DNA of 64,000 nt from Kalymmatonema hyalinum WJT4-NPBG1 (lineage in GTDB: Bacteria; Cyanobacteriota; Cyanobacteriia; Cyanobacteriales; Nostocaceae), in contig JAHHIB010000043.1 of assembly GCA_019359075.1 (NCBI GenBank), positions 1 to 64,000 of the forward strand, given 5' to 3'. The notes beneath the pieces are model-generated. The model saw nothing but the letters and a program-made list of their open reading frames with translations. It did not search any database and had not been told where the DNA came from. Position numbers and translations under genes: made by a program. Numbering within the stretch: the first letter of the stretch is position 1; each line of letters begins with the position of its first letter. Of this stretch, positions 14,357 through 60,300 are shown one piece after another.

Positions 14357-16423
14357 ATGACTAATCGTCTGGCTCAAGCTCAAAGTCTCTACCTCCGCAA
14401 ACACGCCGAAAACCCTATTGATTGGTGGTCTTGGTGTGACGAAGCACTCGCAACGGCAAAGGCACAGAATAAACCGATATTTCTTTCCATTGGCTACTCC
14501 AGTTGTCACTGGTGTACTGTTATGGAAGGTGAGGCTTTTTCCGACGCGGCTATTGCCCAGTACATGAACGGCAACTTTCTTCCTATAAAAGTAGATAGGG
14601 AAGAAAGACCAGACCTTGATAGCATTTATATGCAAGCTTTGCAAATGATGAGCGGTCAAGGGGGTTGGCCTTTAAACGTTTTTCTTACCCCAGATGATTT
14701 AGTACCATTCTACGCTGGTACCTACTTCCCAGTTGAACCGCGCTACGGTCGTCCTGGCTTTTTGCAAGTCCTGCAAGCAATTCGTCACTACTACGATACA
14801 GAAAAAGAAGATTTACGCGATCGCAAAGCAGTGATTCTTGAGTCACTCCTCACCTCCGCAGTGTTGCAACCCGATGGAGTTACAGAATCTCAAGATAGAG
14901 AATTGTTGCACAAAGGTTGGGAAACTTCTACAGGTATCATCACACGTAATCAAGCCGGTAATAGCTTCCCGATGATTCCTTACGCAGAACTTGCATTAAG
15001 GGGAAGCAGATTTGATTTTGAATCGCGGTATGATGGCAAGCAAGTTTGTACCCAACGGGGACTAGACCTCGCACTGGGCGGCATTTATGATCATGTGGCA
15101 GGTGGCTTTCACCGCTACACTGTAGACCATACTTGGACAGTGCCGCACTTTGAAAAGATGCTCTACGACAACGGTCAGATTGTAGAGTATCTCGCTAACT
15201 TGTGGAACGCAGGAGTCCAAGAGCCAGCTTTTGAGAGAGCGATCGCCGGAACTGTTCAATGGCTGAAGCGAGAAATGACTGCGCCAACTGGCTACTTCTA
15301 TGCAGCCCAAGATGCAGATAGTTTCACCACTCCCACAGAAGCAGAACCAGAAGAAGGCGCGTTTTACGTCTGGAGTTACAGCGAATTGCAGCAACTGCTT
15401 ACTCCTGAAGAACTAACAGAATTGCAACAGCAGTTTACAGTTACGCCTAATGGTAACTTTGAGGGTAAGAATGTGTTGCAAAGGCGTAGCCCAGGACAAC
15501 TGAGTGCAACCTTAGAAAGCGCACTTGCCAAGCTGTTTACTGTTCGCTATGGTGCAGCACCTGAGTCAGTAGAGACTTTCCCCCCCGCCCGCAACAACCA
15601 GGAAGCGAAAACCGAAAACTGGAAAGGACGCATTCCTGCGGTGACAGATACAAAGATGATTGTCGCCTGGAATAGCTTAATGATTTCTGGTTTAGCAAGG
15701 GCGTATGGAGTCTTTCAACAACCAGAGTATCTGGAACTAGCAGCAAAAGCAGCAAACTTTATCTTGGATCATCAGTTTGTCGATGGGCGGTTCCATCGAC
15801 TGAACTATGAAGGACAAGCTACTGTACTGGCTCAGTCTGAAGATTACGCCTTTTTTATCAAAGCGCTACTCGATTTACACCAAGTTTCACTGACTCACAA
15901 CTCATCTTCCTTGTGGCTGGAAAGAGCGATCGCCATCCAAGAGGAATTCCACGAACATCTTTGGAGCGTGGAACTAGGTGGATACTACAACACATCAAGT
16001 GACGCAAGTCAAGATTTAATTGTGCGAGAGCGAAGCTATGCAGATAATGCCACACCATCCGCCAATGGAGTTGCGATCGCCAACCTTGTCCGTCTCGCTC
16101 TTTTAACCGACAATCTTGATTACTTGGATTTAGCCGAGCAAGGGTTAAAAGCATTTAGAAGTGTGATGAGCCGCGCTCCCCAAGCTTGTCCCAGCTTGTT
16201 TATAGCCTTGGATTGGTATCGTAACTGTACCTTAATCCGTACCACGACAGAGCAGATACAGTCTCTCATCCCGAGGTATCTACCTAGTACTGGGTTGGTT
16301 GCGGTAGCTAAATTACCACAGGGAAGTGTTGGCTTAGTTTGCCAAGCCTTGAAGTGTCTTCCAGCAGCTGCGAATTTAGAGCAGTTGTTGCAGCAAGTGC
16401 AGCAGAGTCAGCTAAGGGGATGA
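14357..16423 (+). CDS. Thioredoxin-like plus glycosidase-fold protein (DUF255, YyaL family)
   Basis: A 688-residue protein of the YyaL/spermatogenesis-associated 20 family. Residues 1-160 form a thioredoxin-fold DUF255 domain with the CxxC-type motif SSCHWCTVM (Cys50, Cys53) and the family hallmark GGWPLNVFLTPD. The remainder is an alpha/alpha toroid similar to N-acylglucosamine epimerases (GGIYDHVAGGFHRYTVDHTW, HFEKMLYDNGQI, TDTKMIVAWNSLMISGLARA, YADNATPSANGVA). Enzymatic activity is not established for the family. Length is typical. No neighbour belongs to an obvious operon; a CAGTTAT-repeat region follows. Confidence 0.88.
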   Translation: MTNRLAQAQSLYLRKHAENPIDWWSWCDEALATAKAQNKPIFLSIGYSSCHWCTVMEGEAFSDAAIAQYMNGNFLPIKVDREERPDLDSIYMQALQMMSGQGGWPLNVFLTPDDLVPFYAGTYFPVEPRYGRPGFLQVLQAIRHYYDTEKEDLRDRKAVILESLLTSAVLQPDGVTESQDRELLHKGWETSTGIITRNQAGNSFPMIPYAELALRGSRFDFESRYDGKQVCTQRGLDLALGGIYDHVAGGFHRYTVDHTWTVPHFEKMLYDNGQIVEYLANLWNAGVQEPAFERAIAGTVQWLKREMTAPTGYFYAAQDADSFTTPTEAEPEEGAFYVWSYSELQQLLTPEELTELQQQFTVTPNGNFEGKNVLQRRSPGQLSATLESALAKLFTVRYGAAPESVETFPPARNNQEAKTENWKGRIPAVTDTKMIVAWNSLMISGLARAYGVFQQPEYLELAAKAANFILDHQFVDGRFHRLNYEGQATVLAQSEDYAFFIKALLDLHQVSLTHNSSSLWLERAIAIQEEFHEHLWSVELGGYYNTSSDASQDLIVRERSYADNATPSANGVAIANLVRLALLTDNLDYLDLAEQGLKAFRSVMSRAPQACPSLFIALDWYRNCTLIRTTTEQIQSLIPRYLPSTGLVAVAKLPQGSVGLVCQALKCLPAAANLEQLLQQVQQSQLRG

Positions 16424-16620
16424 TTAAAACAGCGAACAGTTATCAGTTATCAGTGACCAGGTTTCATCCTCCGGGGGAAACACCACACCAAGAGCACAGA
16501 AAGCGTTGGTGGCGGGTTTAAATCCCCCACCAGCCCGAGAAAGCGTCACTGCGGCTGGTACTGTTCACTGTTTACTGTTCACTGTTCACTGATTTAAACC
16601 CCACTTGAAACAATCCACTT
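16424..16620. repeat. Heptamer repeats carrying the left arm of a 57-bp inverted repeat
   Basis: CAGTTAT-type and CACTGTT-type heptamers surround a dispersed repeat whose core is 16473-16529 (GGGGGAAACACCACACC ... GGCGGGTTTAAATCCCCCA). The core is the exact reverse complement of 21627-21683. Together the copies bracket the NACHT-HEAT and DUF4062 genes. Confidence 0.85.
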
Positions 16621-16800
16621 GTATCCGTGGGGGACTCACGCCTCCCAAGCAACTGTATAGTCATAGCTCGGCACTGCGGCTGGTACGTGGTAACTGTGTT
16701 GAGAACCCCACCTGTAGCAAGACTATGTACAGACGTAGCATGCACTTTCATTACACGCATGGAATGTCATAAATAACCCTTAACTGAAGGTATTGCTTTA

Positions 16801-16952
16801 TATAGCGGTTCTCGCTTGGGTGCAGTACATTTTTAACCTCGCTTCCATTCCTCTCTCCTACAAGGAGAGAGGCTTTGAATCTTACTCCCCTTCCCTACGA
16901 GGGAAGGGGTTGGGGGTTAGGTCTGTATAGGACGAAACTGCAAACCGCTATA
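16801..16952. mobile_element. MITE-like element with TATAGCGGTT termini
   Basis: TATAGCGGTT at 16801-16810 and AACCGCTATA at 16943-16952 are perfect inverted ends of a 152-bp segment without coding capacity. The longer form TATAGCGGTTCTC pairs with GAGAACCGCTATA at 17165-17177, suggesting nested insertion. Another TATAGCGGTTCTC occurs at about 54540. The interior holds CTCTCTCCTACAAGGAGAGAG and CCCCTTCC/GGAAGGGG palindromes. Confidence 0.45.
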
Positions 16953-17010
16953 TTCGCCCGCGATTGTCGCTTCACCCCACCCCGGTTTTGTCTTGCGCCA
17001 AAACCTCGCC

Positions 17011-17043
17011 TCCCCGCTTGCGGGGAGGGGTAAGGGGTGGGGT
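17011..17043. repeat. Dispersed GC-rich palindrome (CTCCCCGC..GCGGGGAG)
   Basis: CTCCCCGCTTGCGGGGAGGG followed by GTAAGGGGTGGGGT. Related copies occur at about 27015-27048, 44022-44056 and 63500-63560. At this site and at 43979 the same flank GTGATTGTTGACAC occurs within about 70 bp, so a composite repeat unit has spread. Confidence 0.6.
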
Positions 17044-17228
17044 AAATCAACGTGGGATAAACGTTTGAACGTGATTGTTGACACCAATGACTTCTAGCCC
17101 GCCCGGATATAGGACGGGCAGGATGCCCATCCCACAAGAATCAAGAACTATGTTCTTTCCAATTGAGAACCGCTATAGTAGGCAATGCGCCACACTACAG
17201 AAAACTGATACTCGACAACAAGCTTCTG

Positions 17229-17648
17229 AAACTCAATGATGAGATTCCAATACTCGCCAACGACATATAAACACTCAACGCCGAGGTTCTGAAACTCGCC
17301 AAGGAGATATAAACACTCAACGCCGAGTCTCAAACACTCGCCAAGGAGATGTAAACACTCAACGCCGAGTCTCCAATACTCGCCAAGGAGATATAAACAC
17401 TCAACGCCGAGTCTCAAACACTCGCCCACGACATATAAACACTCAACGCCGAGTCTCAAACACTCGCCAACGACATATAAACACTCAACGCCGAGTCTCA
17501 AACACTCGCCAACGACATACAAACACTCGACGCCGAGTCTCAAACACTCGCCAACGAGATATCAACACTCAACGCCGAGTCTCAAACACTCACTGACGAG
17601 ATATAAACACTCAACGCCGAGTTGTCAATTCTCACTCACGAGGAAATT
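17229..17648. repeat. Tandem array, exact 42-bp period (two 21-bp half units), ten units
   Basis: The anchor ACACTCAACGCCGAG (or a one-base variant) starts at 17271, 17313, 17355, 17397, 17439, 17481, 17523, 17565 and 17607, always 42 bp apart without any indel. A degenerate unit precedes them. Each unit splits into two 21-bp halves that both begin ACACTC (for example 17313 and 17334). Minus-strand frames stay open for part of the array only because 42 is divisible by three; a TGA breaks that frame in the distal units, so I do not call a gene. The array ends about 66 bp before the NACHT-HEAT start codon. Confidence 0.9.
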
Positions 17649-17714
17649 ACTGAGATTAAGATAGAGGAAAGTCTCTCACCGCTAAAATAACACCCCCCTT
17701 ACCTCAAGCTCAAC

Positions 17715-20700
17715 ATGGTCGATTGGAGTGGCTATCTTAATTCAGTTTGCCAAGCTTACGCCCAATGGTGGCAAGTCTACACCTTCACAGATGTCCTTGG
17801 ACGCAACAAAGCAGAACCGCAACTGCACATTCCCCTGTTGGATTTGGGTTTGATGGTACAAACAGTTGAGCGTGATCAGCAAGGGGAGAAGCAGGAGAAA
17901 ATTGAGCGTTTCAGTGTTTTGGAAGGTTTGCGGCAATATGCACCTGAGCACGTATTATTAGTAGGACGCCCAGATTCAGGAAACTCCACAGCGTTAGCGC
18001 GGTTATTGCTAGAAGAAGCGGAGAAGGCGAAAGGGAGACAAGGAGATGATGGGGAAGTTTTACGAAAGTCTGTCATTGCGAGTGAAGCGCAGCCGAACGC
18101 AGCAATCTCCGCAACTCCTGTCATACCCGTCCTCGTAGAACTCCGCTACTACAAAAGATCGATCCTCGAACTTATTCAAGACTTCCTCCTCCGCCATGAT
18201 CCCAATTTAACCTTTGATAGCGAAACCCTCAAAACTTGGTTGCGACAGGGGCAATTGTTGCTGCTAGTCGATGGTGTCAACGAATTACCGTCAGAAGACG
18301 CAAGGCGAGACTTAAAAGCATTCCGCCAGAACCACCCCCAAACACAAATGATATTCACCACACGGGATTTGGGGGTAGGTGGTGACTTGGACATTGCCAA
18401 GAAACTGGAAATGCAACCCTTGACGGAAGAACAGATGCAGCAGTTTGTCCGCGCCTATCTGCCAGAACAGGGTGAGGAGATGCTGAGACAGTTGGGCGAT
18501 AGGTTGCAGGAGTTCGGGCAAACACCACTGCTGTTGTGGATGCTGTGTTCTGTTTTTGTTCAAAACCAGAACAAAGTGCCGTCAAATCTGGGTTCCGTGT
18601 TTCGCCTATTTACCCAGACATATGACCAAAAACTCAAACAAGATATCCCAACTTCTAGAGAGTTTCGCCTTTGGTGCCACAAGCTGTTGCAACATTTAGC
18701 TTGGGTGATGACTCAAGGGAAAGCGTTGACAGATTTGCAAGTTGCCATTCCCAGACAGCAAGCTGAAGCTGTGCTAACGGAATTTTTACGAGATAAGGTG
18801 GCTCATCCAGAGAATTGTGCTTTGGAATGGCTACAAGATTTACTCAATCATCACCTGATTCAACTAGGCGCAGACAATAAAATTGAATTTCGCCACCAAC
18901 TCATTCAGGAATACTACACCGCAGAATGTCTGCTGACGCGGTTAAGCAACCTAAGTGATGACAGCCTCAAACGCGAGTATCTCAATTATCTCAAATGGAC
19001 AGAACCTTTAGCACTGATGGTGGAGTTGCTGGATAATGAGGCGCAGGCGGTGCGAGTGGTGAAGTTAGCCTTAGAGGTAGATTGGCAACTAGGAGCGAGG
19101 TTGGCGGGTGCAGTTAAACCACAGTGGCAGGAAAAAACAGTTGATTTAATTGCTGATTTAAAACTTCCTCAATTACTTGAAATTAGATTTTTTGAAATCA
19201 GTAAATCTGAAAAAGCAATTCCTTTTCTTGGAAAAGCGACAGAAGATGAAGACTCTGATGTGCGTTATAGAGCGGCATCAGCCCTAGGAGAAATCAAATC
19301 AGAAGCGGCGATTCCACAGTTAATTAAACTCCTAGAAGATGAAGACTCTGATGTGCGTTATAGAGCGGCCTCAGCCCTAGGACAAATCAAATCAGAAGCG
19401 GCGATTCCACAGTTAATTAAACTCCTAGAAGATGAAGACTTTGATGTGCGTTATAGAGCGGCCTCAGCCCTAGGAGAAATCAAACCAGAAGCGGCGATTC
19501 CACAGTTAATTAAACTCCTAGAAGATGAAGACTCTGATGTGCGTTATAGTGCGGCATCAGCCCTAGGACAAATCAAATCAGAAACGCTGGTTCCACTGTT
19601 AATTAAACTTCTAGAAAATGAAAACTCTGATGTACGTTCTAGTGCGGTATATGCTTTAGGAGAAATCAAATCAGAAGCAGCGATTCCACTGTTAATTAAA
19701 CTCCTAGAAGATGAAAACTCTGATGTACGTTCTAGTGCAGTATATGCCATAGGAGAAATCAAATCAGAAACGCTGGTTCCACTGTTAATTAAACTCCTAG
19801 AAGATGAAAACTCTTCAGTGCGTTATAGAGCAGCAGATACCTTAGAAAAAATCAAATCAGAAACGGTGGTTCCACTGTTAACTAAACTTCTAGGACATGA
19901 AGACTCTTTAGTACGTTATAGAGCGGCAGATGCCTTAGGAAAAATCAAATCAGAAACGGCAGTTCCACTGTTAACTAAACTTCTAGAACATGAAGACTAT
20001 TTAGTGCGTTATAGAGCGGCAGATGCCTTAGGAAAAATTAAATCAGAAACGGTAGTTCCACTGTTAATCAAACTTCTAGAAGATGAAGACTCTTTAGTGC
20101 GTTCTACTGCGGCAGATGTCTTAGAAAAAATCAAATCAGAAACAGCGATTCCATTGTTAATTAAACAGCTAGAAGATGAAGAACCTTATGTGCGTTCTAG
20201 TGCGGCATCTGCTTTAGGAAAAATCAAATCAGAAACGGCAGTTCCACTGTTAATCAAACTTCTAGAAGATGAAGACTCCTATGTGCGTTCTAGTGCGGCA
20301 TCTGCTTTAGGAAAAATCAAATCAGAAACGGCACTTCCACTGTTAATTAAACTCTTAGAAGATGAATATTCTTCAGTACGTTCTAGTGCGGCATCTGCTT
20401 TAGGAAAAATCAAATCAGAAACGGCAGTTCCACTGTTAATTAAACTCTTACAAGATGAAGACTCTTCTGTGTTTTCTAGTGCGGCATCTGCTTTAGGAAA
20501 AATCAAATCAGAAACGGCAGTTCCACTGTTAATTAAACTCTTACAAGATGAAGACTCTTCTGTCCGTTATAGAGCAGCAGATGTCTTAGGAGAAATCAAA
20601 TCAGAAACCGCAGTTCCACTGTTAATTAAACTCTTACAAGATGAAGACTCTTCTGTCCGTTATAGAGCAGTATATGCCTTAGGAGAAATCAAATCAGAAA

Positions 20701-21005
20701 CCGCAGTTCCACTGTTAATTAAACTCCTAGAAGATGAAAACTCTTATGTGCGTTCTGGAGCGGTAGATGCCTTAGGAAAAATCAAATCAGAAACGGCAGT
20801 TCCACTGTTAATTAAACTCCTAGAAGATGAAAACTCTTATGTGCGTTCTATTGCGGCAGATGTATTAGGTGAAATTGGAGAACCTTCAATCCTACCTGGT
20901 ATCAAGGAATTTTTATTAAAATTGAACGGTTTACATTTATTAGATACTATCTCTTCAATTCAACAAAGCGCTCGATACTACGATTCAACCTTAATACAAT
21001 CATAA
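17715..21005 (+). CDS. NACHT-HEAT STAND NTPase with 18 near-identical HEAT units
   Basis: A 1096-residue protein. Residues 1-75 form an N-terminal helical domain; NACHT spans about 76-470. The P-loop reads GRPDSGNST (84-92): the invariant Lys is Asn90 and the usual Gly is Asp87. Walker B is LLLLVDGVNEL (181-191), sensor-1 is MIFTTRD, and the winged-helix part ends in FRHQLIQEYYTAE. From about 490 to 1070 there are 18 HEAT/PBS-type units of 31 residues (LLEDEDSDVRYRAASALGEI type), 93 bp each and very similar at DNA level. Residues 119-132 (VIASEAQPNAAIS) look like a translated dispersed repeat. Probably a sensor or scaffold ATPase of the STAND class, plausibly in phage defence; nucleotide binding may be weakened. 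The DUF4062 gene follows after 36 nt. Confidence 0.85.
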   Translation: MVDWSGYLNSVCQAYAQWWQVYTFTDVLGRNKAEPQLHIPLLDLGLMVQTVERDQQGEKQEKIERFSVLEGLRQYAPEHVLLVGRPDSGNSTALARLLLEEAEKAKGRQGDDGEVLRKSVIASEAQPNAAISATPVIPVLVELRYYKRSILELIQDFLLRHDPNLTFDSETLKTWLRQGQLLLLVDGVNELPSEDARRDLKAFRQNHPQTQMIFTTRDLGVGGDLDIAKKLEMQPLTEEQMQQFVRAYLPEQGEEMLRQLGDRLQEFGQTPLLLWMLCSVFVQNQNKVPSNLGSVFRLFTQTYDQKLKQDIPTSREFRLWCHKLLQHLAWVMTQGKALTDLQVAIPRQQAEAVLTEFLRDKVAHPENCALEWLQDLLNHHLIQLGADNKIEFRHQLIQEYYTAECLLTRLSNLSDDSLKREYLNYLKWTEPLALMVELLDNEAQAVRVVKLALEVDWQLGARLAGAVKPQWQEKTVDLIADLKLPQLLEIRFFEISKSEKAIPFLGKATEDEDSDVRYRAASALGEIKSEAAIPQLIKLLEDEDSDVRYRAASALGQIKSEAAIPQLIKLLEDEDFDVRYRAASALGEIKPEAAIPQLIKLLEDEDSDVRYSAASALGQIKSETLVPLLIKLLENENSDVRSSAVYALGEIKSEAAIPLLIKLLEDENSDVRSSAVYAIGEIKSETLVPLLIKLLEDENSSVRYRAADTLEKIKSETVVPLLTKLLGHEDSLVRYRAADALGKIKSETAVPLLTKLLEHEDYLVRYRAADALGKIKSETVVPLLIKLLEDEDSLVRSTAADVLEKIKSETAIPLLIKQLEDEEPYVRSSAASALGKIKSETAVPLLIKLLEDEDSYVRSSAASALGKIKSETALPLLIKLLEDEYSSVRSSAASALGKIKSETAVPLLIKLLQDEDSSVFSSAASALGKIKSETAVPLLIKLLQDEDSSVRYRAADVLGEIKSETAVPLLIKLLQDEDSSVRYRAVYALGEIKSETAVPLLIKLLEDENSYVRSGAVDALGKIKSETAVPLLIKLLEDENSYVRSIAADVLGEIGEPSILPGIKEFLLKLNGLHLLDTISSIQQSARYYDSTLIQS
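18072..18109. repeat. REP-like dispersed repeat inside the NACHT coding sequence
   Basis: GTCATTGCGAGTGAAGCGCA followed by GCCGAACGCAGCAATCTC matches the general GTCATTGCGAG..GAAGC..AGCAATCTC class of bacterial intergenic palindromes. It lies in frame between the P-loop and the next conserved strand (PVIPVLVELR) of the NACHT domain. Confidence 0.55.
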
Positions 21006-21041
21006 GCAACAATAAACGCTGACGAAAATAACAATCATTTC

Positions 21042-21584
21042 ATGGAACAAAAGCGTATTTTGCGAGTTGTTGTGGTATCATCTAATGATGTGAAGCCTGA
21101 GAGAGATATTCTACCCACTATAATTGATGAATTAAATCGTGGTATTGCCGCAGGCAAGCGTTTAATCCTAGAACTCTCCCGGTGGGAGACAGATACTTAC
21201 CCAGGATTTCATCCAGAGGGACCACAGGCTTTGATTGACCCTATATTAGATATTGAAAATTGCGACATCCTGATAGGAATTTTTTGGAAGCGATTTGGCA
21301 CACCAACCAAAGATGGTCAATCTGGTACAGAACATGAATTTCAATGTGCTTATGAATCTTGGAAAAAGCGCGGTAGTCCTCAGATTATGTTCTACTTCTG
21401 TCAGAAACCTCATACACCTCAATCAGTAGAAGAAACACAGCAGTGGGGCAAGGTTATAGAATTCAAGAAGCAATTTCCTCCAGAAGGCTTATCTTGGAAC
21501 TACAAAAACAAGAGTGAGTTTGAAAAGCTACTTCGTAACCATTTAACACAACTAATTCGACAAAATTGGGGCGATGGCAATTAA
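21042..21584 (+). CDS. DUF4062 domain protein
   Basis: A 180-residue single-domain DUF4062 protein. Family features: an N-terminal beta strand and VVVSSNDVKPERDILPTIID, then ELSRWETDTYPGF, the D/E-rich ENCDILIGIFWKRFGTP, and SGTEHEFQCAYESW. DUF4062 has a TIR/nucleoside-deoxyribosyltransferase-like fold and is usually the N-terminal effector or adaptor of STAND proteins (NACHT, NB-ARC, TPR). Here it is a separate gene 36 nt after the NACHT-HEAT gene, so the two products probably work together. The conserved Glu in GTEHEF is in the position of the putative catalytic acid; activity is unproven. The right arm of the 57-bp inverted repeat begins 43 nt after its stop. Confidence 0.85.
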   Translation: MEQKRILRVVVVSSNDVKPERDILPTIIDELNRGIAAGKRLILELSRWETDTYPGFHPEGPQALIDPILDIENCDILIGIFWKRFGTPTKDGQSGTEHEFQCAYESWKKRGSPQIMFYFCQKPHTPQSVEETQQWGKVIEFKKQFPPEGLSWNYKNKSEFEKLLRNHLTQLIRQNWGDGN

Positions 21585-21794: not shown

Positions 21795-22538
21795 ATGTCC
21801 CTCGCCAAAGAACTAGACTTTCCTCAAGATATCCCAGAAGATGTTATCCTTCCCCCAAGCGATTTATATAGTGACGAACCTCCCTTGGAAACTGAACTAC
21901 ATCTAGAGCAAATAATGCTCTTACTTAAATGTCTAAAGTGGTTGTGGCGAGACAGGACTGATTTTTACGCTGCTGGCAATCTGACTATTTATTACAGTCT
22001 CAGCAAACGCAAATCAGAAGACTTCCGAGGACCAGATTTTTTCGTCGTGCTAGACACAGAACGCAAAACCCGCAAAAGTTGGGTAGTCTGGGAAGAAGAA
22101 GGTAAATATCCTAATTTTATTCTAGAAATTCTTTCAGAATCAACTGCTAATACAGATAAAGAACTTAAGAAAAAACTTTACCAAAATACCTTCCGCACCC
22201 CCGATTACTTTTGGTTCGATCCATATACATTAGAATTTGCCGGTTTTCATTTACTAGATGGCAAGTATGAACCTTTAGAAGCAAATCATCAAGGGCATTT
22301 GTGGAGTCAGCAATTAGATTTATATCTAGGAATTCATCAAGGTTTATTGCGATTTTTCACACAATCAGGACAGTTAGTTCCAACGCCAGAAGAAGAGGCT
22401 GAATCTGAACGTCAACAAAAAGAATTAGCAGAACAAGAAGCTGAGTCTGAACGTCAGCAAAAAGAATTAGCACTTAGTAAAGCTGAAAGATTAGCTGCTA
22501 AATTGCGAGAATTAAACATTGACCCTGATACAATTTAG
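21795..22538 (+). CDS. Uma2 family (DUF820) PD-(D/E)xK nuclease-fold protein
   Basis: A 247-residue member of the family that is heavily expanded in cyanobacteria. The nuclease-fold core shows GNLTIYYSLSKRKSEDFRGPD with the active-site Asp, FFVVLDTERK, then NFILEILSESTANTD with the Glu, and YFWFDPYTLEFAGFHLLDGKY. The C-terminal 45 residues are a coiled coil with two copies of EAESERQQKELA. Function is unknown; many copies look like selfish or accessory genes. The start is ATG 21795 (MSLAKELDFPQD). It is separate from the bracketed NACHT module, 110 bp beyond the inverted repeat. Confidence 0.88.
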   Translation: MSLAKELDFPQDIPEDVILPPSDLYSDEPPLETELHLEQIMLLLKCLKWLWRDRTDFYAAGNLTIYYSLSKRKSEDFRGPDFFVVLDTERKTRKSWVVWEEEGKYPNFILEILSESTANTDKELKKKLYQNTFRTPDYFWFDPYTLEFAGFHLLDGKYEPLEANHQGHLWSQQLDLYLGIHQGLLRFFTQSGQLVPTPEEEAESERQQKELAEQEAESERQQKELALSKAERLAAKLRELNIDPDTI

Positions 22539-24618: not shown

Positions 24619-27060
24619 TTACTTCAGATAAATCAGCAAGTTCAATCCGGGAATTGTGCGGGAGAGAGTCCACAAAAGTAGGGTGATGTAAAGTATACCC
24701 AAAATCCATTGATACCAGGCAAGTGTGGTGATGATACCAGGAAGGTGTTCGTCTCGTAAGCGAATGTCATTAAAGCCTAATCTCAATAGGTTGTTGAGGC
24801 TAAAGTCGTAATAATTGAGCCAGTTCCAGCGGCAGTTTAACAACAGAGGCAAATATCGCTCACGAAACATTTGATACCTGGGTATCACTGGCAAACGTCC
24901 AATAAGTAATCGTAACTGCCGCAAAGTCCCATCTTCTGTGAAGTAGGAAACATCCATCAAGTTATGATAGCGACCTTGTTGGTAAAGTCGGAATAACAAT
25001 GCGATCGGTAAGGGGAAGATGATAACGAAAAGACACCCCAGTGTTAGCCAAGGCTGTTCTCCTGTCCGAAAAATAGCAAATAAGCCAAACAGTGTTAACA
25101 GGCTAAAACTCGTCAGCATCGAAGTGGTTTCGTAAGCTGTGGGAAGAATGGGTACTGGAAGCAGGCGGCGGAAACGATCAATAAGCCAAAACAGCAAACC
25201 GAAGAAGGCGATCGCAATCAACCCCACACCAATCACCAAGCAAAAATTCGTCCCGTATCCGGAAAGCAGCAGCAGTAAACTCAACGTCAACCAATTCCAT
25301 GCTTGCAGTAACCATCCAAATGGTGAGAGGGGTTCGCTCACAAATAACTGCGAACTGACTTGCGTGTATGTCTTATAATCTATGTATGGTACAATAAGTA
25401 GCTCAGTTTTATTGCGAAATAATTGTTGAACACGGCGGCGGGCGATCGCTTCTGCCTGAATTGCCGAAAAACCCAGATTCATCAAACGTTCTTGAGAAGC
25501 ACTATTTAAATTCGTACCAACCAGATGACGGCTGAAATCCTCCAATCGCAAGCGCTGCTTTGTGTACTCTAACTGATTCGCATCGCCAATTTGCTGCAAC
25601 TGACGGAAATTTTGCCCTAAATTCCGCAAGACGCTTTGATTGTTTTGCAACCTAGATACCACAAGCATTTTACCAATTTGACCTGGATTGCCTAAAATTT
25701 TGGCTTGGTTAGAGTTAAAAATCAGACCAGAGACATTCAAACAAGCATCCTTCGCAAATCCAGCATCGCTAAAATCTGCAGAATTGACAATACTAGCGCC
25801 TTGCAAATTCACAAGTTGGTTAAACTGTGCTTCCCGAAAGGTTACAGCTTGCTCAAATGTCGCCTCTGTGAGGAAGAGAAACTGATTGAAAATACCTTTA
25901 GTAAACTGTGCTTGCTCGAAAAAACGTACATTAGAAAAATCAGCATTTCCTTGCCATTGCACGCGAGTGAATTTAGCCAACTGCTTAAAATGAGCCTGAG
26001 TGAAATTGGCTGTATCCTCAAAAGTGCTGTCTTGGAAATGTGTGCTTTCCTGAAATTGGGTTTGCTTAAAATTAGCTTTATCAAAAAAGATACTGCCCAG
26101 AAACTGGCTTTCTTTCTTAAAAGTTGCACTGGTAAAGCTGGCTGCACGGCTGAATCTTGTTTCAGTCCAATTTGCCTGTTGAGTAAAAATAGCACCTTGG
26201 GCGTCCACAGGCTGAAGAAAAAATGTATTGGAAAACTGCACAGTCCCATTGAAGCGAGTTTCTACCAGCGTCAACGAACCACGGAAAACACTAATTTCGG
26301 TGGATGCAGTTGACTTTGCTAAAAGCGATTTACAGTCTTTGGAACTAGGTAATGCGACGACAAGTGACTGCAAGCAAACCTCGCGCAGACGTTCCAGTTG
26401 TTCTTGTTCAGTTGAAGTGAAAATAGGGGCGATCGCTTGAGCATACAGAGGTGTTCTCAAACCTAAATCACTGCCGAAAAAATCTCCCTGAATGACAGAA
26501 TAACTCAAGTCTAAACCTAAAGGTTTTGAGCCTGCTTTTTGCAGTTCCTTTCGCAACATTTGATAGAAAGCATCCCGAAAGCTCGCATTTTCCGGTTGTA
26601 AATCTATCACCATCTGGCGTAAATCTACTACGACATTGCCTTCACGAAGGATGGGCGTATGCAGTCGCTCTTGCAATAATTCTAGAGTTAAAGGAGTACG
26701 TTCTATTTGTGCAGGTGCGCCCCATGCGGGTAGGGGTTGTGAAAACAACAACAGCGCACATAAGATAATCAATAAGCCAGCTTGTTTTAACCAACCTACC
26801 CAAGATGAAAAAACCTCACCCCCCAACCCCCTCTCCGCAAGCAGAGAGGGGGAGGTATTTTTTCCCCTCCTGACTTGCACAGAAGGGGAGATATTTTTTC
26901 CCCTCCTTGCTTGCTCCAGAGGCGGAGGTATTTTTTTCCCTCCTCGCTTGCTCCAGAGGCGGAGGTATTTTTTTGCCTCCTCGCTTGCTCCAGAGGCGGA
27001 GGTATTTTTTCCCCTCCTCGCTTGCGGGGAGGGGTAAGGGGTGGGGTCATAATTTACCAA
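24619..27060 (-). CDS. Pentapeptide-repeat membrane protein; 5' end fused to repeat DNA
   Basis: The open frame is 813 codons, but the first ~85 translate GC-rich tandem repeat DNA (PYPSPQARRGK, PPPLEQARRGK). The real protein probably begins near 26810, just before a signal-like helix (AGLLIILCALLLFSQPLPAWG); no in-frame ATG or GTG is there, only a TTG in RGLGGE. The mature part has a region with LDLSYSVIQGDFFGSDLGL, then ~25 pentapeptide-like A(N/D)F-type units (ANWTETRFSRAASFTSATF, ANFTQAHFKQLAKF, ADFSNVRFFEQAQF), and at least four C-terminal transmembrane helices. Role unknown; probably an envelope protein with a right-handed beta-helix facing the periplasm. The start needs experimental support. 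Confidence 0.75.
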   Translation of the reverse strand: MVNYDPTPYPSPQARRGKNTSASGASEEAKKYLRLWSKRGGKKIPPPLEQARRGKNISPSVQVRRGKNTSPSLLAERGLGGEVFSSWVGWLKQAGLLIILCALLLFSQPLPAWGAPAQIERTPLTLELLQERLHTPILREGNVVVDLRQMVIDLQPENASFRDAFYQMLRKELQKAGSKPLGLDLSYSVIQGDFFGSDLGLRTPLYAQAIAPIFTSTEQEQLERLREVCLQSLVVALPSSKDCKSLLAKSTASTEISVFRGSLTLVETRFNGTVQFSNTFFLQPVDAQGAIFTQQANWTETRFSRAASFTSATFKKESQFLGSIFFDKANFKQTQFQESTHFQDSTFEDTANFTQAHFKQLAKFTRVQWQGNADFSNVRFFEQAQFTKGIFNQFLFLTEATFEQAVTFREAQFNQLVNLQGASIVNSADFSDAGFAKDACLNVSGLIFNSNQAKILGNPGQIGKMLVVSRLQNNQSVLRNLGQNFRQLQQIGDANQLEYTKQRLRLEDFSRHLVGTNLNSASQERLMNLGFSAIQAEAIARRRVQQLFRNKTELLIVPYIDYKTYTQVSSQLFVSEPLSPFGWLLQAWNWLTLSLLLLLSGYGTNFCLVIGVGLIAIAFFGLLFWLIDRFRRLLPVPILPTAYETTSMLTSFSLLTLFGLFAIFRTGEQPWLTLGCLFVIIFPLPIALLFRLYQQGRYHNLMDVSYFTEDGTLRQLRLLIGRLPVIPRYQMFRERYLPLLLNCRWNWLNYYDFSLNNLLRLGFNDIRLRDEHLPGIITTLAWYQWILGILYITLLLWTLSRTIPGLNLLIYLK
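26811..27048. repeat. Tandem ~45-bp GC-rich repeat joined to a dispersed palindrome
   Basis: Four to five copies of a unit like TCCTCGCTTGCTCCAGAGGC plus GGAGGTATTTTTTTCCC run from about 26860 to 27015, flanked by CCTCACCCCCCAACCCCCTC on one side and the GCTTGCGGGGAGGGGTAAGG palindrome on the other. The units differ by a few bases, showing recent amplification. They overlap the first 85 codons of the pentapeptide gene's open frame. Confidence 0.8.
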
Positions 27061-45305: not shown

Positions 45306-45328
45306 GAATCTTGCTGTCCCCCATTGTC

Positions 45329-45380
45329 AGTCATCAGTTATCAGTTATCAGTTATCAGTTATCAGTTATCAGTTATCACT
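45329..45380. repeat. Heptanucleotide repeat (AGTTATC) inside the ndh operon
   Basis: Seven tandem copies of CAGTTAT lie in the 98-nt gap between ndhG and ndhE, and the flanking AGTGATAACTG forms an inverted partner. Its presence inside an operon suggests it is tolerated or used in transcript processing. Confidence 0.8.
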
Positions 45381-47908: not shown

Positions 47909-48345
47909 GTGCTTTTGCTCTTCAAGTCATCAGAACATTGTCATTTACAACTATCCACGCTTGTTAATAACTGTAAATTTGCTCATAAAACCTTGGGGGA
48001 AGTGTGGAAACCCGGGCCATGACGGCACGGGACAAAATTTAAGATTTTTTGCAATTCCCATGCCTAGTATATCGTTGCATGGTTTTTGCCCCTTTAGCTA
48101 GACGAGAATTTCTACCTATGGTAAGGATTAGAATTCCCTAATAAAGGGACTGGGACTGGCGATTGGGGACTGGCGACAGTTATCAGTTATCAGTTATCAG
48201 TTATCAGTTACCAGTTACCAGTTTTCAGTTATCAGTTACCAGTTTTTTGGTCACTGTTCACTGTTCACTGTTCACTGTTGACTATCCCCTATCCCTAATC
48301 CCCTATCCCTAATCCCCTATCCCTAATCCCTAATCCCCTATCTTT
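47909..48345. promoter_or_regulatory. ndhA upstream region, then a long block of heptamer repeats
   Basis: The first ~230 bp should carry the ndhA promoter; CCCGGGCCATGACGGCACGGG is a small inverted repeat at about 48011-48031. From 48175 to 48345 there are heptamer repeats in three families: CAGTTAT/CAGTTAC, CACTGTT, and CCCTAAT/CCCCTAT, running up to the gltA stop. This is one of the longest STRR tracts in the window. Confidence 0.6.
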
Positions 48346-60235: not shown

Positions 60236-60300
60236 GTCATTCTCGGTGACCAATGACCAATGACTCATGACTAATGACTAATGACTCATGACTGACTGAT
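60236..60300. repeat. Heptanucleotide repeat (TGACTAA/TGACCAA/TGACTCA)
   Basis: About seven tandem copies of a seven-base unit fill the 95-nt gap between the receptor and cheA genes. Confidence 0.8.

Follow-up and report, generated by a model that had tools for sequence, protein, structure and literature searches.

The locus studied here raises the question of what holds a tandem repeat in strict register directly upstream of a NACHT-HEAT gene, and whether that gene has any claim on it. The window that we analysed is a 64,000-nucleotide stretch of the Kalymmatonema hyalinum WJT4-NPBG1 genome, in which the original prediction had placed an array at 17229-17648 and had proposed that selection for spacing, as in an array of protein-binding sites, was at work. 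Our analysis points to a dispersed, mostly non-coding minisatellite family whose half-sites may be kept as helically phased sites for a putative dimeric DNA-binding protein, a tentative reading that could well be right and that we stop just short of calling probable. A phase scan resolved the window array into 21 of 21 consecutive head-to-tail 21-bp units in a single phase at 17210-17650 on the plus strand, so that an array does lie where it was predicted but starts 19 bp further left, and TRF reported 17252-17622 with a period of 42, 8.8 copies, 91% matches and 0% indels. The 42-bp period arises because two types of 21-bp unit alternate, ACTCAACGCCGAGTCTCAAAC and ACTCGCCAACGA[CG]ATATAAAC, together with variants of them. 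The nine predicted anchors, exactly 42 bp apart and free of indels, were confirmed: ACTCAACGCCGAG stands at 17273, 17315, 17357, 17399, 17441, 17483, 17567 and 17609, the variant ACTCGACGCCGAG at 17525, and the first of these ACTC[AG]ACGCCGAG anchors occupies 17273-17285 on the plus strand. The description of each unit as two 21-bp halves beginning ACACTC held as far as the true unit of 21 bp, but ACACTC occurs at 15 places in the array rather than in every half, the other units reading AATACTC, GAAACTC, GATACTC or AATTCTC. The run score of the array is 61 against 3 in the remaining window, of which 20 block-shuffled copies scored 3-6.

The window holds further tandem repeats of other kinds. 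Heptamer (STRR-like) arrays are many, for example at 45327-45378, 48177-48342 and 60247-60293, and most of them are free of indels. A 37-bp tandem array of 4.9 copies occupies 26845-27025 at the 5' end of a minus-strand ORF (24619-27060) whose real start is probably downstream of that array, and a two-copy 42-bp repeat at 22387-22472 within a Uma2 gene codes for 14-residue repeats in letters unlike those of the 21-bp family.

Across 1157 internal units from 126 arrays, a set that includes four arrays duplicating others, the consensus is ACTC-RTYSR-CGAGT-ATCAAAG, in which two inverted half-sites (ACTC-N6-GAGT) are followed by a 7-bp linker like ATCAAAG/C. The starts of ACTC and GAGT alternate 10 and 11 bp apart, about one helical turn. 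The central hexamer is tolerant and its vocabulary is small, with ATTCAC found in 58 of 115 arrays, while the linker carries a conserved AA, and T16 and A18-A20 are conserved though absent from the search pattern. The half-sites were themselves part of the pattern by which arrays were detected, and their conservation is therefore inflated; in 249 non-seed units, which were selected for failing the exact half-site pattern, positions 13 and 14 were kept in 66% and 76% of cases versus 83-90% at linker positions 16 and 18-20. Arrays showed neither a defined end nor a leader, base preference fading within about one unit beyond 105 arrays, and in-place inversion of the central hexamer within its arms was not supported, exact reverse complements making up 0.3% within arrays against 0.4% between them. 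The consensus, hexamer, strand-folding, half-site-change and off-phase counts leave out three arrays from bins labelled as other bacteria (L036, L048, L092) and two off-phase or partial arrays (L052, L122), all five of which are included in the reading-frame counts (131 arrays); six duplicates or single-unit matches (L009, L010, L011, L013, L014, L015) were kept out of all array statistics, and the double counting of four arrays (L017/L087, L020/L090, L025/L112, L027/L053) reflects the presence of the same genome in two collections.

The gene beside the window array, at 17715-21005 on the plus strand with 1096 codons, lies outside the repeat family and encodes NACHT (PF05729) and HEAT repeats; the NACHT match reached 27.6 bits against a Pfam cut-off of 26.7 (E 3.1e-6) with the N-terminal part scanned alone, and NACHT was not listed at 1e-5 in a scan of the whole protein. 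That the array is a cis-regulatory element of this gene is suggested by its position, its 3' end lying 64 bp upstream of the ATG at 17715, and by adjacency kept in the window (21 units), G001 (13), G104 (12) and G059 (7). Against this, two relatives (G012, G058) have three units at the same locus with no NACHT gene adjacent, and in two others (G072, G073) the upstream gene and the NACHT gene are neighbours as in the window with no array between them; at other loci, arrays occur upstream or downstream of genes or within them, in either orientation. In G002 both the array and the 5' part of the NACHT gene are gone, and the upstream gene, Thioredox_DsbH (PF03190; 14357-16423, plus strand), is present at the locus in relatives that carry the array and in others that lack it. 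Between array and start codon, the first 57 bp of the spacer (17651-17714, plus strand) recur as right flank of a second array at an unrelated place in G104. The array is thus independent of the NACHT gene and no dedicated control element of it, contrary to the tie that had been proposed, and its moving independently of that gene had been named beforehand as one ground for giving the proposal up; we find the cis-regulatory explanation scarcely credible, and the window array should not count as evidence on NACHT gene control. Promoter and terminator scans gave counts no different from shuffle expectation. STAND or solenoid-repeat genes next to arrays, a conspicuous pattern by eye in the home genus, were not significantly enriched in the wider set: among the 25 commonest families of each scan, TPR_2 occurred in 12 of 143 neighbour proteins versus 2 of 76 controls (p 0.15), and nSTAND1, in 5 of the 143, fell outside the 25 commonest control families. 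The neighbours derive from 101 arrays of many genomes (150 non-redundant proteins, 143 scanned), while the controls all come from two genomes of the home genus, G001 and G002 (38 of 40 regions).

Some features of these genes were recorded in their own right. The NACHT gene carries at 17715-18250 a degenerate Walker A stretch, GRPDSGNST, without lysine, and its product may therefore not hydrolyse ATP normally. In G001 (L171 6034-8592, compared with 17715-21584 of the window) the NACHT-HEAT ORF has 852 codons rather than 1096 and fewer 93-bp HEAT units, and it continues into DUF4062, which is a separate gene in the window. The second window-type array of G104, with its right flank, lies between unrelated genes (L260 3489-3776), next to a histidine-kinase-like gene, by duplication or move.

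Arrays of this family stand beside many kinds of gene in filamentous cyanobacteria. The home genome has ten further arrays of the same 21-bp unit, on contigs C46, C51, C80, C104, C134, C138, C165, C168 and C174 and, with four units, on C128. A three-unit pattern with up to three mismatches was found in 104 of 217 genomes of the family, spread over 19 of 56 genera, compared with 3 of 217 genomes for the same pattern read backwards, and in a class-wide sample with up to two mismatches it was found in 15 of 291 genomes from three families, the home family and two others. An exact-pattern scan of named genomes gave at least 105 stretches, three bins labelled as other bacteria being set aside, and among the 80 titles listed most were Nostoc, Scytonema, Tolypothrix, Brasilonema, Westiellopsis, Fischerella and relatives. 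A strict pattern marked 6-8 array places per genome in four genomes, in which by eye no two-block (replichore-like) orientation was seen; the home genome has 11 arrays, the window array included. The places, like the neighbouring genes, are varied. Presence is patchy even inside genera (none in G040, many in G041), which argues that the family is not essential. The window array had no blastn match in plasmids or phages. Some of the 21-bp arrays run directly into heptamer arrays.

The spacing is strict well beyond the window. Among 39 genomes of a single genus, no two adjacent exact cores start 16-20 bp or 22-26 bp apart, while a search at 16-21 bp returned 2,037 matches over both strands, spread across 37 of the 39; all 2,037 therefore fall at 21 bp, and the proposal of strict spacing holds for a large number of arrays and genomes. 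Relatives are largely free of random spacing and of frameshifting indels, either of which had been named beforehand as grounds for giving up selection on spacing: the 126 fetched loci contain 1,069 in-phase neighbour steps and 5 off-phase ones, at four distinct loci (L025 = L112, 41 bp; L099, 37; L123, 23; L137, 38), each flanked on both sides by in-phase units. Off-phase steps thus do arise and persist, but rarely. Indel-free tandem repeats are common in these genomes, however: among the heptamer arrays (43 period-7 arrays in the window and 40 control loci), 27 of 35 imperfect ones are likewise free of indels, so that the absence of indels alone does not establish selection on spacing and is partly how tandem repeats evolve here.

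Comparison of relatives, which the original prediction had proposed, shows how the arrays change. At the window locus they carry 13, 12, 7 or 3 units where the window has 21. Orthologous loci of G000, G001 and G002 were paired by their flanks, giving 11 array comparisons that reuse three arrays in three pairs and are not independent. Eleven of 20 indel events in these arrays are multiples of 21, and the remaining nine, all except one of 20 bp, cancel or add up to 21. Elsewhere, two arrays of 12 and 5 units (L168/L184) have 200-bp flanks that differ at only 1 and 2 bases. Gain and loss of whole units account for most changes in array length, and whole-unit differences of this kind between relatives, in head-to-tail units longer than about 9 bp, mark a bacterial minisatellite. 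Across the 11 comparisons, positions 1-4, 11-13 and 19-20 changed at 35 of 1041 aligned positions, positions 5-10, 15-18 and 21 at 251 of 1271, and position 14 at 9 of 115; the position classes were compared by a Fisher test whose cells are not independent. Between species the half-sites are thus 2-4% changed against about 20% in the central hexamer and linker, part of the high rate at variable positions stemming from unit turnover, which aligns unlike units. At the L161 locus the arrays differ by 11.5% (L178) and 13.4% (L175), the left flanks by 3.0% and 5.5% and the right flanks by 6.3% and 9.5%, respectively.

Constraint of this kind might in principle reflect a protein-coding frame. Twenty-one base pairs are seven codons, and the frame CTC NNN NNC GAG TAT CAA ANA would give LxxEYQ[RT], a heptad with L at d, as expected of a remnant or working piece of coiled-coil coding sequence; some strings from another family (G323) look protein-like by eye, a few arrays do lie in frame within genes, and two other frames are often open (minus frame 2 in 90 of 131 arrays, plus frame 2 in 81 of 131). 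In the window array, however, the heptad frame has 7 stops and every one of the six frames has at least two, so that none is open and coding is largely refuted there. Over the whole set the heptad frame is open in just 44 of 131 arrays, the third codon positions 1, 4 and 13 are among the most conserved, and 6 of 131 arrays are flanked on each side by over 60 open codons, in differing frames, one of the six coming from a non-cyanobacterial bin, one standing beside masked bases (L070) and one containing them (L108). We regard a coiled-coil origin as very improbable. In one of the six, in a gene of nSTAND-WD40 type, the array fills the loop that separates the Walker A motif from FDQFEEF, and this loop is length-tolerant: in a comparison covering 11 of 20 fetched loci, the offset between the two motifs is 169 residues in two array-bearing genes versus 83-108 in six repeat-free homologues, and three more homologues carry other 7-residue repeats in the loop. 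Another in-frame array sits in a gene that we take, by eye, to resemble a GH38 alpha-mannosidase. In the nSTAND NTPases L272, L275 and L283 this loop holds other in-frame 7-codon (21-bp) repeats in different letters, such as STSEAQR and LEHERPS-SEHDTPS, and in the home genome a mismatch-repair-like gene, MutL-type by eye (L166 9295-9462), has in-frame 7-codon repeats (NSxLTTE...) that match the unit scan weakly.

Alternatively, the array could be transcribed and its minus-strand RNA, as oriented here, be active as a long self-paired molecule. The folding bias is real: for the window array, the minus strand gives -189.8 kcal/mol and z -10.6 against shuffles and the plus strand z -3.0; in 78 of 95 arrays the minus strand has the greater stability, since A-C mismatches on the plus strand turn into G-U on the minus strand at pairs 5-10 (35% versus 6%) and 17-19 (61% versus 2%). 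Pair 6-9, however, lacks this bias (16% versus 19%), shuffling columns among units barely alters stability (real arrays exceed the shuffle mean in 55 of 95 on the minus strand and 61 of 95 on the plus strand), 16400-17800 has no Rfam match at gathering score, and the strand bias could come from one ancestral unit. Nor do the half-sites show an excess of compensatory changes: 654 changes are one-sided and 23 double, 10 of the latter pair-restoring, where base frequencies alone predict 20.5 double and 8.9 pair-restoring changes. We give little credence to an active self-paired RNA, which is a lead rather than a demonstration. With no open frame in the window array and paired changes at chance level, readings built on coding or on hairpin structure alone are weak, and the dominance of one-sided changes, with double changes at chance, argues for recognition of sequence rather than pairing.

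As judged from the sequences, constraint on half-sites one helical turn apart is better explained by an array of protein-binding sites than by coding or hairpin structure, and of the earlier proposal of a spacing-selected binding array, the strict spacing and the half-site constraint have stood while the tie to the NACHT gene has not. The half-sites and their spacing would be held by sequence-specific recognition, most likely by a putative dimeric DNA-binding protein on each unit; the 21-bp step, two turns of the helix, would place every dimer on the same face of the helix and could allow cooperative binding, and a bound array might serve in chromosome organisation, silencing or anchoring. The observed pattern fits half-site constraint at helical spacing, but the arrays were found by those half-sites and the other tandem repeats here are poor in indels. 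Counted against dimer sites are thus the half-site-based detection, the commonness of indel-free tandem arrays, the patchy presence and the off-phase steps, and, to our knowledge, a cognate binding protein is neither known nor found. The leading alternative is a minisatellite that propagates itself and has no function for the host, in which small inverted half-sites favour strand slippage or template switching, so that arrays retaining them are amplified and dispersed, and spacing is fixed mainly because duplication and loss proceed in whole units. Such an element would account for fast changes in unit number (21, 13, 12, 7 and 3 at one locus; 12 versus 5 between nearly identical flanks at L168/L184), for the lack of defined ends or leader (105 arrays), for arrays that abut heptamer repeats or lie in frame in genes, once in a length-tolerant loop, for the copying of array and flank to an unrelated place in G104, and for the patchy distribution; the heptamer arrays, too, are mostly indel-free. 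A structural need alone, however, would permit other complementary half-sites, whereas pair-restoring changes are near expectation (10 against 8.9) beside 654 one-sided ones, the same letters recur in three families of the class sample (though these were searched by those letters), and the window array has no plasmid or phage match. The absence of alternative complementary half-sites speaks against self-propagation, but the arrays were found by the half-site letters themselves, and we keep it as a genuine possibility, if on balance a doubtful one. A further variant extends dimer binding to a chromosome-wide site system, in which the several phased ACTC-N6-GAGT ladders of a genome would seat a putative protein filament or bridge that organises or tags chromosomes; the patchy distribution would follow if lineages that lose the protein lose the arrays too, and we consider this extension unlikely.

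Should a protein read the arrays, as we tentatively favour, then 104 of the 217 family genomes, about half, carry an unstudied site system, whose natural variants in unit number and spacer letters would constitute a test of two-turn phasing in cooperative binding. Should they have no reader at all, the family would be an unusually clean example of a repeat in which period and inverted half-sites persist as other positions drift.

Within the open literature covered by our search, we found no description of the 21-bp repeat; one related report mentions heptamer abundance in bacteria (PMC4692102), and another appears to bear on small dispersed repeats (SDR) of Nostoc or on REP/REPIN elements (PMC3116915). 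A mobile element on a phage or plasmid was considered and rejected, the window array having no blastn match there and the two stretches of the exact pattern in viral contigs being, by eye, coding repeats of another kind. CRISPR arrays and LTRR resemble the family in their regularly spaced repeats, but the 21-bp units abut head to tail, and a spacer would be far longer than the variable hexamer; a CRISPR array, with unique spacers of ~30 bp and a leader, was rejected on hexamers common to many arrays (the same ATTCAC count) and the lack of a conserved flank. Iterons, plasmid centromeres and operator-like arrays, including 434-type 14-bp operators, have inverted half-sites about one turn apart, and like the 21-bp arrays they repeat at whole turns; by contrast, the 21-bp family has no plasmid match and no known protein, and it occurs several times per chromosome, in varied places and with variable unit number. 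STRR, the short tandemly repeated repetitive heptamers of heterocystous cyanobacteria, are likewise tandem, scattered through the same genomes and mostly indel-free. The 21-bp unit is nevertheless not three like heptamers: a 7-bp STRR unit was rejected on the TRF period of 42, the unit of 21 and three consensus heptamers that are mutually unlike, and the family differs further in its inverted half-sites and in keeping the same letters across 19 of 56 family genera. The SDR of Nostoc and REP/REPIN elements are also short, partly palindromic, dispersed and non-coding, but they are single or paired elements, whereas the 21-bp family forms long phased arrays.
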